Assembly: GCA_021779955.1 (NCBI GenBank)
Contig: JAJXZS010000043.1
Location: 1 to 36,829, forward strand
Reading direction: 5' to 3'
DNA from: Chloroflexota bacterium
GTDB lineage: Bacteria > Chloroflexota > Anaerolineae > Anaerolineales > Anaerolineaceae
Length of the DNA stretch: 36,829 nt
Shown: positions 13,798-17,776 of the stretch, piece by piece
Layout: each line of letters begins with the position of its first letter
Position numbering within the stretch: position 1 is the first letter of the stretch
Made by a program: the position numbers and the translations under genes
Notes under the pieces: generated by a model
Told to the model about the DNA's origin: nothing
Databases searched by the model: none
Seen by the model: only the letters and a program-made list of their open reading frames with translations

Positions 13798-14346
13798 TTA
13801 GCTTCCGCAGCCGCAAGATCCATCTTCGCAGCCGCAGTCGCCATCACAATCGCAGTCGTCTTCAGAGTGGACATGACCGTGTTCCAGCTCTTCTGCAGTT
13901 GGAGCGCGCAGCCCAGCGATGGTGACATCGAATTGCAGGTCTTTGCCTGCCAATGGATGATTTGCGTTCAGGGTGACAGTCTCGTCATCGAATGCTTCGA
14001 TGACTGCCACAATGACTTCGCCATCTTCATCCTGGATCGAGACTTCCACGCCCTGTTCCATGGGGATTTCGGACGGGAATTCCGAGCGTCCGACAGTCAT
14101 GACCGCTTCGGGATCATAAATGCCATACCCTTCGGCGGCGGGAACAGATACGCTCTTTTTATCGCCGATGGACATTCCGTACAATTCCTTCTCAAGACCT
14201 GGGATGATATTTCCGCATCCCTGGATGAATTCGATGGGCTCGGAATCCTCGGAAGAGTCGACGATTTCACCATCGACTGTCAGCGAATAATCCATGCTAA
14301 CGACAAGGTCTTTTTCGACCTTACTAAAATTGGAGGTTGCGTTCAA
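13798..14346 (-). CDS. slyD: SlyD-like FKBP-type peptidyl-prolyl isomerase with metal-binding tail
   Basis: A 182-residue protein. The FKBP domain with an inserted 'insert-in-flap' chaperone domain spans about 10-155 (VEKDLVVSMDYSL at the start, FIQGCGNIIPGLEKELYGM and AAEGYGIYD following). It catalyses prolyl isomerisation and acts as a folding helper in the cytoplasm. The last about 30 residues are rich in His, Asp and Cys (HGHVHSEDDCDCDGDCGC and more), as in SlyD tails that bind nickel or zinc and serve hydrogenase maturation in some bacteria. No hydrogenase genes are in view. The start appears to be TTG at 14346 with AGAGAG 5-6 bases before; the nearest downstream ATG would cut into the domain. 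Confidence 0.88.
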   Translation of the reverse strand: MNATSNFSKVEKDLVVSMDYSLTVDGEIVDSSEDSEPIEFIQGCGNIIPGLEKELYGMSIGDKKSVSVPAAEGYGIYDPEAVMTVGRSEFPSEIPMEQGVEVSIQDEDGEVIVAVIEAFDDETVTLNANHPLAGKDLQFDVTIAGLRAPTAEELEHGHVHSEDDCDCDGDCGCEDGSCGCGS

Positions 14347-14426: not shown

Positions 14427-15995
14427 TCACAAGGTTGTCTCCACCGTATGCACACGGATTGCAGCTTCTCCGGGCACAGGGCATTTGAACTCACAGGTTC
14501 CGCAGCCGATGCATGTCTCGGAATTGACGACGGGTAGTTGAAGTTCAATCTTCTGCCCCTGCGGGTCTAGAATCGTGCGAGTCTCCAGATTGATTGCCTT
14601 CTTATCCAACGGACACATCTCTTCACAAACGATGCACGGCGTTTGATGCCCCCAGGCCAGGCAGATATCATGATCGATCACTGCCTTTCCGATCACCACT
14701 TTGTGCTTTTCATCGAGCAAAAGGGAAGGGATCGCCTGTACAGGGCAGGTCTGACCACAGGCATTGCAGTTGTAATCGCAAAATCCGTTTCGAGGGACAA
14801 AAACGGGCGTCATAAATCCTACGACAGAACTATTCTCAGGGTCAAATTGGAGTGCCTGGGTTGGACACGCTTTGACGCACAATCCGCAGCGGACACACTT
14901 TGAAAGCAGTCCAACTTCTGTTGATCCGGGCGGGCGCAACGCGAAACGGGTGTCAGGCAGCTTTAGCACATTCGAATTCACGATTACGGCGCCAACGGCA
15001 AAAGCTCCGAAGGATTCAAGAAAGGTTCGCCTGCCCGGATCGTACTCGTAGCCGGTTTCAGGTCTGGCAGCTTGCCTGAATGCAAACTCACTATTCTTGC
15101 AGGTTCCCAGGCAGTTGAAACAGAGGGTGCATTCTGATGGATCGCTTCTGAAGCCATGGGCTCGATCGATGGTTCCTGTGGGGCATGTCGCCTCGCATAA
15201 TCCGCAAGATGTGCATGAGTTCTTGACCGTGCGCCTGAAAAGCGAGAGTTTGGCTCCAAGGCCGAGCACTGCGCCAAGCGGGCATAGGTATCTGCACCAG
15301 AAGCGTTCAGCCAGGAAGTTGAGTGCGATCAGCAGGGCGAAAAAGCCCAAAACGATTGCCGGGTAAAGGAAGATTGCAGGGGTGGACTGGAAGACCGCCG
15401 GCCGCAGCCATTGATCAAATTTGTATACTGTATCGGCGAGAGGAGGTACATTCACAAGAATCAGTTCGAGTTGGTAGATCGACTTGTCCAATACAGGCAA
15501 AAGACCCACCGTCAATGTTCGCGTCGTAATCGTGATGGGATCGAGAAAGAGCAACGTCAGGTTGCTGAAGACTGCAGCCAGGATGGCGGTCAGGAGGATG
15601 GCATACTTGGCGCTTCTCAGTCTATCCGAAATGTGGGCTTGCTTCTTCCGAATCCGTGCAAGAGGGAAGATATCGAGGATTGTTCCAAGAGGGCAGAGCC
15701 AACCGCACCACGCCCGTCCGGCCACGAAACTGGAGGCGAGCAAAACAAGCGCCACACTACTGCCAATCAAAAAAGTCCTGCTGCTAATCATGGTCGTCAG
15801 CATGGTAAATGGACTGATGCGCACTGCCAGATTATTCGCTGGTGATGCCATCCCGCCCAAGCGAGTCGCCATGAGCGTGATCATGAACGCACATAACGAG
15901 AACGCCTGAATCCATCTTCTGGCTGAAACCAGGGTAGAACGCCTGCGTTTCCCTTTCTTATGCGCCTTAGGCGTATTATGATCAGGCATCGGCAT
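14427..15995 (-). CDS. membrane polyferredoxin, NapH-NapG-type fusion
   Basis: 522 residues. The N-terminal half is membrane-embedded: hydrophobic helices at about 30-50, 74-94, 130-150 and 207-229, with two CxxxCP motifs at helix ends (CGWLCPLG at 97-104, CRYLCPLG at 234-241) as in NapH/CcoG/NosR proteins. Cytoplasmic-type 4Fe-4S motifs follow at 261-271 (CTSCGLCEATC) and 289-299. At 321-345 comes GRRTFLESFGAFAVGAV, an internal twin-arginine-like segment plus hydrophobic stretch, then four more cysteine clusters (367-377, 406-417, 445-461, 495-505), as in NapG. It probably passes electrons across or along the membrane. It overlaps the DUF362 gene by 14 bases. GAGG precedes the ATG. The redox partner is unknown. 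Confidence 0.82.
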   Translation of the reverse strand: MPMPDHNTPKAHKKGKRRRSTLVSARRWIQAFSLCAFMITLMATRLGGMASPANNLAVRISPFTMLTTMISSRTFLIGSSVALVLLASSFVAGRAWCGWLCPLGTILDIFPLARIRKKQAHISDRLRSAKYAILLTAILAAVFSNLTLLFLDPITITTRTLTVGLLPVLDKSIYQLELILVNVPPLADTVYKFDQWLRPAVFQSTPAIFLYPAIVLGFFALLIALNFLAERFWCRYLCPLGAVLGLGAKLSLFRRTVKNSCTSCGLCEATCPTGTIDRAHGFRSDPSECTLCFNCLGTCKNSEFAFRQAARPETGYEYDPGRRTFLESFGAFAVGAVIVNSNVLKLPDTRFALRPPGSTEVGLLSKCVRCGLCVKACPTQALQFDPENSSVVGFMTPVFVPRNGFCDYNCNACGQTCPVQAIPSLLLDEKHKVVIGKAVIDHDICLAWGHQTPCIVCEEMCPLDKKAINLETRTILDPQGQKIELQLPVVNSETCIGCGTCEFKCPVPGEAAIRVHTVETTL

Positions 15996-17004
15996 TGATT
16001 TCCTCGAGCTTCACCTGTGAAAGATCACCGACCCCGAGATTTCGATCGATCGCTTTCCGCACATAACCTACATCAGACGGGCTCATATTGAAGAGCGAAG
16101 TTGCCCAACTGTCGACGGTCACGATATCCGGCGAAATGGCGATCGTGTTCGTTTCCTTGACATCATCCAGGCTTCCGCCTGTGGGTCCGTTGGCCAACAG
16201 GATGCGGATGGCGTCCATTACGGTCACTGTCGGCCTGACAAGCGTGGCAAGATCGACAATAGACTCATGCAAGCTGCTGTGAAGCTGTTCGCGCCCGTTC
16301 ACAGTGCCCATAAGATTCTTCATGCCCAAAGTAAGCGTCGCCGCACTGTGATCTTTAGCAATCGGGACATTGATGATCGTATCGGCCGTGAGAAATTCTT
16401 CATAGAGCTTGAAGGAGGATTGGGCCACACCGTTTGGGCAGGATGTGTCCTTGAATTTCAAATGCTGCATTACTTCCATTTCGCCGCCTGCGTTGGCGAC
16501 CTGCTCAGCTATGCCGCTGTTCGCATAGCATTCCTGGGCTGTGCCTCCAAAGGGGTTGTCCATAACCCTCACACGCCCGGCGCCTGCCTCAAAGCAGAGC
16601 TTTACCAGGGCTCCAACGAGCCATGGATCGGTGGTCACGGCGTATTTATATGTGCGATAGCCTGCGCAGATGTTCGGTTTGATGATGACGTTCGCGCCCG
16701 ATTTGACGAATCTTTCCAATCCGCCGATCGCCTGCATGCCCTTCCTGATCATGCTTTCAGGGTTTGTGCCATGGACGACGACAAGGCCAGGCGCTTCCCC
16801 CGTAGGAGACTGGGTGGGTTCCATCTCGTTTGTGGATGGTTCTGTAGACAGATCAGGAGTCTGCGTTGCTTTCATTTGGGAGATGTCTCGCCCCGTCGAA
16901 TCTGTTGGTTTGATTCCGCAAGCTGCTAAAAGTTGCTGAGTTGCCAGCGCGGTCATTCCCAGGCCTGCCATACGCAAAAATTGTCTTCGATTGAATGCTT
17001 TCAT
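15982..17004 (-). CDS. DUF362 family Tat lipoprotein
   Basis: A 340-residue protein. The N terminus has a twin-arginine signal (NRRQFLRMAGLG) that ends in a lipobox, LLAAC, so it is probably exported folded and anchored as a lipoprotein. A Ser/Thr/Glu/Pro-rich linker to about residue 75 leads to the DUF362 domain (VIIKPNICAGYRTYKYAVTT, VPIAKDHSAATLTLGMKNLMG, a Gly-rich GRVRVMDNPFGG). It lacks the ferredoxin domain that some DUF362 proteins carry; the adjacent polyferredoxin may supply it. The start at 17004 is set by GGAGG and the Tat motif. Biochemical function of DUF362 proteins is not established. It shares an operon with the overlapping polyferredoxin gene. Confidence 0.8.
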   Translation of the reverse strand: MKAFNRRQFLRMAGLGMTALATQQLLAACGIKPTDSTGRDISQMKATQTPDLSTEPSTNEMEPTQSPTGEAPGLVVVHGTNPESMIRKGMQAIGGLERFVKSGANVIIKPNICAGYRTYKYAVTTDPWLVGALVKLCFEAGAGRVRVMDNPFGGTAQECYANSGIAEQVANAGGEMEVMQHLKFKDTSCPNGVAQSSFKLYEEFLTADTIINVPIAKDHSAATLTLGMKNLMGTVNGREQLHSSLHESIVDLATLVRPTVTVMDAIRILLANGPTGGSLDDVKETNTIAISPDIVTVDSWATSLFNMSPSDVGYVRKAIDRNLGVGDLSQVKLEEINADA

Positions 17005-17074: not shown

Positions 17075-17776
17075 TTATTCGTTTGAAAGGACTGAGCACT
17101 GATTTATTGCCGTGGATTGTACCAGTTTTTGGACATCAGCCATGATGGTTTCAAATGGTAAAGTGGTGACGAAATGCCCTGGAACCAGTTGACTCCAATC
17201 GATTGCTTCAAACAAGGCGATATTCCTGTTTGTGACGGCACTGCATACGGATTGGAAGAAGAACTGGCTATTCGTCAATACAACGTGCTTCTCATCATCG
17301 GTTTGTGGTGGGGCCGCCAGAATTGGCGTGTTCTGACCCGTAATCAACGCATTGAACAGGGAGAGCCCCGTATTGTCGGTTGTGATGACGCCGGTAATGT
17401 CAACATCGAACTTTTTATTCAATTCAACGATAAACTTGCTGTTGACCTGCCCTTTTTTGTCGAGGCTGAATGCCGCTGAAAGCGAACTCTGCACGGTGGC
17501 ATCGTGCGAAGGCATCATCGGAATGAACATCACCTGGTTTGCCCCTGCATAATAGACAAAAACACCCCAAACAGAGATGAGATTGGGCTTATCTCTGGAG
17601 AGGTCGTCTACATGAACAAGTATGTAATTCTGCTGGGCTTTGGCAAGCGCTGTCGCGGCATTTGCGGGTAGATTGCCACCTGACGAATTCGGATTGATAT
17701 TGGAAGCCGCCTGAAAGCCGAGGTAGGCAAAGAACACGAAAACCAGGATGACTAAGACAATGGCGATTCTTTTCAT
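17075..17776 (-). CDS. membrane-anchored protein with degenerate LCP-like domain
   Basis: 233 residues with an N-terminal membrane anchor (about 4-24, IVLVILVFVFFAYLG) and the rest outside the cell. The segment NYILVHVDDLSRDKPNLISV, then VMFIPMMPS, followed by a later DVDITGVITTDNTGL, parallels the order of core strands in LytR-CpsA-Psr proteins, which attach glycopolymers to peptidoglycan. The arginine pair that binds the polyprenyl pyrophosphate ligand in true LCP enzymes is not visible, so this may be a non-catalytic relative. It lies 70 bases before the DUF362 gene in the same direction and could share its transcript. The LCP link is tentative; otherwise it is a hypothetical protein. Confidence 0.5.
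   Translation of the reverse strand: MKRIAIVLVILVFVFFAYLGFQAASNINPNSSGGNLPANAATALAKAQQNYILVHVDDLSRDKPNLISVWGVFVYYAGANQVMFIPMMPSHDATVQSSLSAAFSLDKKGQVNSKFIVELNKKFDVDITGVITTDNTGLSLFNALITGQNTPILAAPPQTDDEKHVVLTNSQFFFQSVCSAVTNRNIALFEAIDWSQLVPGHFVTTLPFETIMADVQKLVQSTAINQCSVLSNE

Follow-up and report, generated by a model that had tools for sequence, protein, structure and literature searches.

The two genes in the window

This report concerns two overlapping genes in a stretch of 36,829 nucleotides from a Chloroflexota bacterium of the Anaerolineaceae (assembly GCA_021779955.1, contig JAJXZS010000043.1), which we call the window. One encodes a protein of the DUF362 family with a putative twin-arginine translocation (Tat) signal, and the other a polyferredoxin in which NapH-like and NapG-like halves are fused. 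The two are a real and widely conserved pair. Their features, all on the minus strand, are the following.

15982..17004, minus strand: putative DUF362 Tat lipoprotein, an open reading frame of 340 amino acids (aa) with its ATG at 17004 and a match to PF04015
17009..17013, minus strand: ribosome-binding site GGAGG of the DUF362 gene, read from the sequence, 4 nt ahead of the ATG
16918..17004, minus strand: predicted Tat signal peptide with RRQFLRM and the lipobox LLAAC; Cys29 is the predicted first mature residue
16279..16356, minus strand: LarA-like motif K217-x-H219-x9-K229-N ... H242, invariant in 32/32 DUF362 sequences
14427..15995, minus strand: NapH-NapG fusion polyferredoxin, an open reading frame of 522 aa with its ATG at 15995
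15051..15995, minus strand: NapH-like half of the polyferredoxin, residues 1-315, from hydropathy peaks and Cys columns
14964..15032, minus strand: putative internal Tat signal of the polyferredoxin, residues 322-344, made up of R322-R323 and the last membrane segment
14430..14963, minus strand: NapG-like half of the polyferredoxin, residues 345-522, from 16 invariant Cys and the NapG/MauM profiles

The N-terminus of the DUF362 protein, MKAFNRRQFLRMAGLGMTALATQQLLAAC, carries both the Tat motif and the lipobox. The protein matches PF04015 with 152.8 bits (Pfam gathering cut-off 24) and does not reach the Npun_F2552 family (NF052623; 90.2 bits against an NCBIfam cut-off of 500). The polyferredoxin matches Pfam Fer4_5 and several Fer4 families, and all of its scores against the NCBIfam NapG and NapH models are below cut-off (109.7/269, 103.3/178.85, 84/213.05 and 76.5/234 bits), the NapG score being 109.7 bits and the napH_ score 84 bits. 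GAGGA stands 5 nt ahead of the polyferredoxin ATG, within the upstream DUF362 gene, and an in-frame ATG two codons downstream, at 15989, is an alternative start.

An original prediction, made from the letters of the window alone, had described much of this arrangement correctly: the 14-bp overlap of the genes (15982-15995), the NapH-like and NapG-like halves joined via an internal twin-arginine, and the DUF362 partner with its RR motif and lipobox. The internal arginine pair lies at R322-R323, where residue 321 had been named.

A conserved pair

Relatives were drawn from two samples. The genome_contigs collection was scanned for DUF362 with six short peptide patterns, a scan that is not exhaustive, yielding 30 loci (L numbers denote loci or stretches), with hosts chiefly in the Chloroflexota and also in the Synergistaceae, Spirochaetia, Ignavibacteria and Acidobacteriota. 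The second sample comprised 101 genomes of the family Anaerolineaceae (G numbers, G000 being the window's own genome), in which a strong DUF362 orthologue was defined by E<1e-75 and a strong polyferredoxin by E<1e-110. The samples overlap (L016=G075, L018=G064, L021=G048), and counts from the two are not independent.

A polyferredoxin, whole, partial or split, is found downstream of DUF362 on the same strand in 29 of the 30 genome_contigs loci, a count that includes L010 (contig end), L033 (broken frame) and L028 (split). L027 is the sole locus lacking one in the stretch examined. In L028, from the Acidobacteriota, the two halves occupy separate frames, NapH and NapG, the latter with an N-terminal RR of its own. 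L017 (5084-7256) has a tandem pair of DUF362 lipoproteins ahead of a single polyferredoxin. L033, a 3-kb stretch binned as Phycisphaerales, encodes a DUF362 close to the Synergistaceae ones and is probably a stray contig.

Among the 101 family genomes, 21 have a strong DUF362 and 19 a strong polyferredoxin, all of the latter within the former: 19 with both, two with DUF362 only, none with the polyferredoxin only and 80 with neither (Fisher p 1.3e-18, an optimistic value for mutually related genomes). This is the co-occurrence analysis of DUF362 with NapG/H-like proteins that had been proposed as a check. The typical carrier has one strong copy of each gene and no catabolic gene conserved alongside. 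The genes are adjacent in 18 of the 21 DUF362-bearing genomes, including G002 (87% complete), where a piece of the polyferredoxin stands at a contig end beside DUF362 and falls outside the 19. In G026 and G039 the genes sit on separate contigs, both well internal, and because of these two genomes we regard the link between the proteins as more than operonic. G023 (64% complete) has DUF362 and no polyferredoxin match, and G011, scored as having neither, has a more distant DUF362 (E 4.5e-28) adjoining a NapH-like frame (L058). Far from being rare, then, adjacency is the rule in both samples, which supports the redox pair of the original prediction. No further neighbor is widely common to the loci, apart from tatAC.

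Tat signals and linkage to tatAC

Two alignments were built from the genome_contigs loci: one of 32 DUF362 sequences, namely that of the window and 31 from the 30 loci (two from L017), and one of 27 polyferredoxins, namely that of the window and 26 of the 29, with L010 (contig end), L028 (split) and L033 (broken frame) excluded and L019 kept, part of its NapH half being missing. N-termini of the DUF362 proteins were counted in the 31 sequences less L025, which is without its N-terminus. All 30 that remain have RRxF[LIV]. By hand count, a lipobox-like Cys occurs in 21/21 DUF362 proteins of L007-L027, which are mostly from Chloroflexota, and in 0/9 of L028-L036. In the family genomes, L055 and L056 deviate from the Tat motif with RREAL, and L057 with RRELF and no Cys.

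The internal pair of the window's polyferredoxin, R322-R323, lies in DPGRRTFLESFG and is followed by a weakly hydrophobic segment (residues 326-344) with a Kyte-Doolittle value of 1.42, a scale different from the dG scale of PMC5449189. In this column RR is found in 24 of the 27 polyferredoxins and KR in three, R323 being invariant. Conservation of the motif is beyond chance, because [RK]R is kept in 27/27, against 18/27 for the next-best conserved RR of the protein (residues 254-255).

In five loci (L013, L030, L032, L034 and L035), from four Synergistaceae genomes and one Dehalococcoidia genome, TatC is encoded directly downstream of the polyferredoxin. TatA lies between the two, recognized by Pfam in L013 (two copies), L030, L034 and L035 and by reading of the sequence in L032. 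Each of these genomes has a single TatC match, located beside the pair. TatC was found in all DUF362-bearing family genomes but two, the incomplete G002 and G023 (19 of 21); it occurs in 90 of the 101 family genomes and so does not discriminate carriers within the family. The two Tat signals, together with translocase genes in the gene run of five genomes, support export of both proteins, and to the extent that sequence allows a judgment, the pair is Tat-exported.

Architecture of the polyferredoxin

The polyferredoxin has 28 conserved Cys columns, 26 of them kept in 27/27 sequences and two in 26/27, which correspond to seven possible [4Fe-4S] sites. Sixteen invariant Cys in four groups lie in the NapG-like half and make up four of these sites, which are predicted to be outside. 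The NapH-like half comprises membrane segments, two CX3CP motifs and two [4Fe-4S] motifs; by analogy with the proteins of PMC5449189, the latter are expected on the cytoplasmic side.

Seven Kyte-Doolittle peaks exceed 1.2 in the window's protein, and two of them (95-113 and 163-181) are doubtful as membrane segments. The segment after R322-R323 is below the first segment in hydropathy in 24 of the 27 polyferredoxins (1.42 vs 1.45 in the window), and the 15 residues behind the last segment have a net positive charge in 20 of the 27, the window's protein included. For a homologue, the MLMS-1 polyferredoxin, Tat dependence was demonstrated by fusing it to MBP and AmiA and by changing RR to KK, according to an excerpt of PMC5449189. 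Export of the NapG half by Tat is the most likely topology.

A predicted LarA-type fold in DUF362

The AlphaFold2 model of DUF362 residues 71-340 has a predicted local distance difference test (pLDDT) value of 95.8 and a predicted template modeling score of 0.93. Foldseek returned 19 matches below 1e-3 for it, the best of them LarA and the others malate racemase, LarA-like enzymes and 4nar; the match to 5huq has E 3.4e-7. With VIA-align, 12 LarA-type entries scored Z 15.6-18.3 (root-mean-square deviation 2.6-3.3, 203-212 residues aligned) and the next row Z 5.6, in a list in which the absence of other folds carries no evidential weight. The match places model residues 5-241 on chain residues 4-286, and the remainder of LarA is absent from DUF362, the model having 270 residues vs 393-480 for LarA-type chains. 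DUF362 is thus predicted to adopt the fold of the LarA N-domain. According to a passage of PMC11770544, DUF362 and DUF2088 share one Pfam clan.

Searches of PDB sequences with DUF362, as a single sequence or as a profile, gave no relatives, and of the Pfam models Lar_N, LarA_C and PF04015 only the last matched DUF362 at a threshold of E 0.001. For the alignment of residues we used as a bridge a LarA homologue of the window's own genome (L006, 1012-2358, contig C54; Lar_N 181.8 bits), which occurs in a genome without detectable LarC. Besides 4nar, a protein of Thermotoga, nine PDB sequences of LarA type match it. Where the 2yjg lactate racemase has His174 and Lys184, the homologue has H188 and K198, and with the profile of 32 sequences, domain residues H149 and K159 of DUF362 (H219 and K229 of the full-length protein) fall on these same two. 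In LarA1, His108 and His174 are catalytic, Lys184 binds the cofactor and His200 is a nickel ligand, as an excerpt of PMC11770544 states.

K109, H219, K229 and H242 are invariant in 32/32 DUF362 sequences from several phyla, and the H-x9-K spacing also occurs in the four DUF362 paralogues of the window's genome. H242 (domain H172) lands on H212 of L006, in the same loop as the position aligned with His200 and two residues before it; we accordingly dropped an initial assignment of H242 as the full equivalent of His200 and speak of it as near that position. For His108 there is no DUF362 counterpart, the GLHR motif meeting a gap in the MAFFT alignment. Arg75-Pro of LarA may have its counterpart in K109-P110, a match made by eye only and unaligned in MAFFT.

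LarC has no candidate in the window's genome and was found in 11 of the 21 DUF362-bearing family genomes. The LarA cofactor is not the obvious cofactor of DUF362, because LarC was not found in 10 of the 21, and the LarC-made nickel-pincer cofactor was rejected as an obligate component for the same reason.

A DUF362 paralogue of the window's genome (L002, 1273-2466, contig C20) has a ferredoxin-like insert inside the domain, with visible Cys motifs. The insert scores 21.1 bits against Fer4_7, below the cut-off of 27, and no Tat signal is present in the translation. DUF362 is often found with iron-sulfur domains, according to a passage of PMC5742341.

A proposed redox unit

From the computed pairing, co-occurrence, conserved Tat signals, tatAC gene run (in five genomes), fold and pocket residues, we infer sidedness, direction of flow, donor, cofactor and substrate as follows. 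The membrane segments of the polyferredoxin would be inserted by Sec and the last of them by Tat, leaving three iron-sulfur sites toward the cytoplasm and four outside. DUF362 would be exported folded, by Tat. A cytoplasmic carrier, ferredoxin or NADH via a dehydrogenase, would most likely feed the polyferredoxin, with quinol optional; electrons would then traverse the membrane through the polyferredoxin and pass from its NapG half to the lipid-anchored DUF362. In the LarA-like pocket of the latter, Lys229 would occupy the position of the cofactor anchor, His242 would lie near that of the nickel ligand and His219 would be the sole acid/base His, and the protein would oxidize or reduce a small substrate outside the cytoplasm. 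The original prediction had left the acceptor unnamed; on the present evidence the likely acceptor is DUF362 itself, with its predicted LarA fold.

The reading we prefer, a conduit fed from the cytoplasm that serves an exported LarA-fold oxidoreductase in a two-component extracytoplasmic redox unit, is about evenly poised between right and wrong. Several points weigh against it. DUF362, a putative enzyme, has no invariant Cys of its own in the alignment of DUF362 sequences. The profile alignment with L006 covers a short stretch of 47 residues, at 5.6 bits and with E 4e-4 for a single target, and hhalign, which aligned the same region, gave a probability of 0.74 of 100. H242 is offset from His200 by two residues in the profile alignment and by three in MAFFT, and LarC was not found in the window's genome and nine of the 20 other DUF362-bearing family genomes. 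On the side of the polyferredoxin, KR stands in place of RR in three of the 27 sequences, including that of Pelolinea, and a structure model intended for the topology was poor (pLDDT 65) and was discarded. Finally, with MenA and cytochrome bd encoded in the window's genome, quinol could be the donor there.

The source of the electrons

That last point belongs to the alternative in which the polyferredoxin is a NapGH-like quinol dehydrogenase, passing menaquinol electrons to the exported clusters and DUF362. It is favored by the similarity of the polyferredoxin to NapH and NapG and by the E. coli and Wolinella NapGH, described in an excerpt of PMC5449189 as quinol dehydrogenases. The window's genome has five UbiA-family proteins and cytochrome bd, and cytochrome bd was matched in 15 of the 21 DUF362-bearing family genomes. 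MenA is encoded in the window's genome as well (L068, 597-1577, contig C3; TIGR00751 197.5 bits, cut-off 102.15), despite MenD being below cut-off and MqnA/D not found, which may reflect precursor uptake or an unknown route; together with cytochrome bd, it overturned our earlier view that this genome has no quinone.

Against a quinol route, four genomes that carry the pair (G010, G048, G064 and G075) have a single UbiA protein, above the cut-off for the non-quinone decaprenyl-phosphate phosphoribosyltransferase. These four gave no match for cytochrome bd. In four Synergistaceae genomes with the pair, of unstated completeness, no UbiA exceeded the cut-off. In these eight carriers no sign of quinone synthesis was detected. 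G004 and G035, two further carriers in which cytochrome bd was not matched, have three and four UbiA proteins, one of which (L089, in G004) was typed as the phosphoribosyltransferase, and the carriers G101, G106, G107 and G108 have two or three each. MenD was above cut-off in 0/101 family genomes and MqnA/D exceeded theirs, weakly, in 5/101 and were not found in the window's genome, an absence that says little because the cytochrome-bd genomes lack MenD as well. The excerpts of PMC4877987 and PMC5481317 make no statement on quinones.

A second type of polyferredoxin bears on the same question. Nine family genomes carry this longer form, eight of them without a strong DUF362 orthologue. In eight of the nine (L096, L101-L106 and L108, from G094, G065, G076, G007, G070, G080, G088 and G049) the NapH-NapG core carries a NuoG-like Fer2/Fer4 domain in front of it. 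A NuoF-like flavoprotein adjoins the second-type polyferredoxin and in G070 is joined to it in one 1270-aa frame; that of G049 is distant (25% identity). In G098 (L107), neither a NuoG-like nor a NuoF-like part was found within the 8.4 kb examined. The internal motif D-x-x-RR occurs in eight of the nine, the pattern having missed G049. From its domains, the second type is a possible NADH-fed transmembrane conduit, and the conduit as a whole seems, from the domain fusions, to be modular, with an NADH-type cytoplasmic input as one form and a DUF362 output as the other.

Quinol is a doubtful donor: in some carriers no quinone prenyltransferase was detected, and similar modules in relatives are fused to NADH-dehydrogenase-like domains. 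We consider the NapGH-like quinol dehydrogenase unlikely, with appreciable weight left to it. Of the electron route first suggested, from membrane quinol to extracytoplasmic clusters, the pair and the most likely export of the NapG half have stood, and the membrane quinol, in view of the UbiA data and the NADH-type fusions, is unsupported as stated.

The role of DUF362

Instead of being the terminal enzyme, DUF362 could, once exported, help to assemble or protect the outside iron-sulfur sites of the polyferredoxin, or be a structural partner. Its near one-to-one occurrence with the polyferredoxin fits such a role, with tatAC as the only other widely conserved neighbor, as do the carriers in which LarC was not found and the unmatched model of the LarA C-terminal domain. 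The invariance of K109, H219, K229 and H242 across several phyla, however, exceeds what such a role would need, and the paralogue with its own ferredoxin-like insert also speaks against it. We regard this as quite improbable.

More specific is the view of DUF362 as a half-racemase turned oxidoreductase, in which a 2-hydroxy/2-oxo acid, or something similar, would be oxidized or reduced outside with a Lys-anchored, pincer-like cofactor. LarA transfers a hydride from a 2-hydroxy acid onto its pincer cofactor and then returns it. With one catalytic His and a conduit, DUF362 might keep or receive electrons rather than return the hydride; its cofactor would be loaded ahead of Tat export and, in hosts without LarC, would be of a new kind. 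The chances of this view are lowered because the match to His200 is two residues off, and we hold it to be decidedly unlikely.

Least of all do we expect that the unit supplies reducing power for extracellular repair or maintenance, as MsrPQ does (a parallel split/fused case cited in an excerpt of PMC5449189), and not for respiration or fermentation balance: the single strong DUF362 and polyferredoxin per family genome, with no conserved catabolic neighbor, would suit it, but no repair gene is conserved nearby and most hosts appear to be anaerobes with little exposure to oxidants.

Flanking genes

Immediately downstream of the pair, the window encodes a SlyD-like FKBP protein with a Cys/His/Asp-rich tail (13798-14346), a position that is not kept in relatives. 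About 70 bp upstream of DUF362 lies the gene for a 233-aa protein with a signal-like N-terminus (17075-17776), which gave no match in Pfam or NCBIfam. Function from neighbors was rejected as an approach, the genes for these two proteins not recurring in relatives, and the downstream genes tested in other loci are mutually unrelated, tatC excepted.

Novelty and comparison with known systems

The internal twin-arginine is not a novelty: within a NapH-NapG fusion it has been published and tested experimentally in a homologue, and the excerpt of PMC5449189 (Tooke 2017) lists an Anaerolinea protein among the family. The architecture of the polyferredoxin is known. This analysis adds its DUF362 partner with the predicted fold and pocket of that protein, the linkage to tatAC and reasons to doubt quinol as donor. 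No work on the DUF362-polyferredoxin pair was among the matches listed in the DUF362, polyferredoxin and Synergistota-Tat literature; PMC10892978 came up through DUF3623 only. DUF362 is widespread, and its Pfam name carries no function. An exported DUF362 that occurs near one-to-one with a Tat-assembled conduit, and in which the LarA His and Lys can be placed, is a testable candidate redox enzyme. For quinone-poor anaerobes, the unit would suggest transmembrane electron transfer free of cytochromes, and the Tooke-type polyferredoxin gains a partner.

The dual Sec-Tat polyferredoxins of Tooke 2017, with MLMS-1 Q1NSB0 as the tested case and Anaerolinea thermolimosa WP_062193756.1 in the family list, have seven [4Fe-4S] sites, three inside and four outside, according to the excerpt of PMC5449189. 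The window's polyferredoxin shares with them the NapH-NapG fusion, the twin-arginine directly before the last membrane segment, the seven sites, the weak hydrophobicity of that segment and the positive charges behind it, a likeness to Q1NSB0 and WP_062193756.1 that is drawn from the excerpt's description of its family. It differs in that three of the 27 sequences here have KR and not RR, and DUF362 goes unmentioned in the text of that paper. With NapGH it has in common the two modules and the probable Tat export of the NapG-type half, whereas the fusion, the scores below NCBIfam cut-offs, the doubtful quinol donor and the DUF362 partner set it apart.

DUF362 resembles the LarA/DUF2088 nickel-pincer racemases (5huq, 6d6z/7s91, 9eid, 9q3j) in the predicted N-domain fold, in the candidate equivalents of His174 and Lys184 and in an invariant His near His200. 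Unlike them, it has no His108 equivalent and no match to the C-terminal domain, appears to be exported, has an iron-sulfur partner and is found in many genomes, the window's among them, in which LarC was not. Closer to home, the paralogue L002 shares the PF04015 domain and, in contrast to the window's DUF362, has no Tat signal; its ferredoxin-like insert, with a Fer4_7 match below cut-off, may fulfill in cis the role that the polyferredoxin would have in trans.

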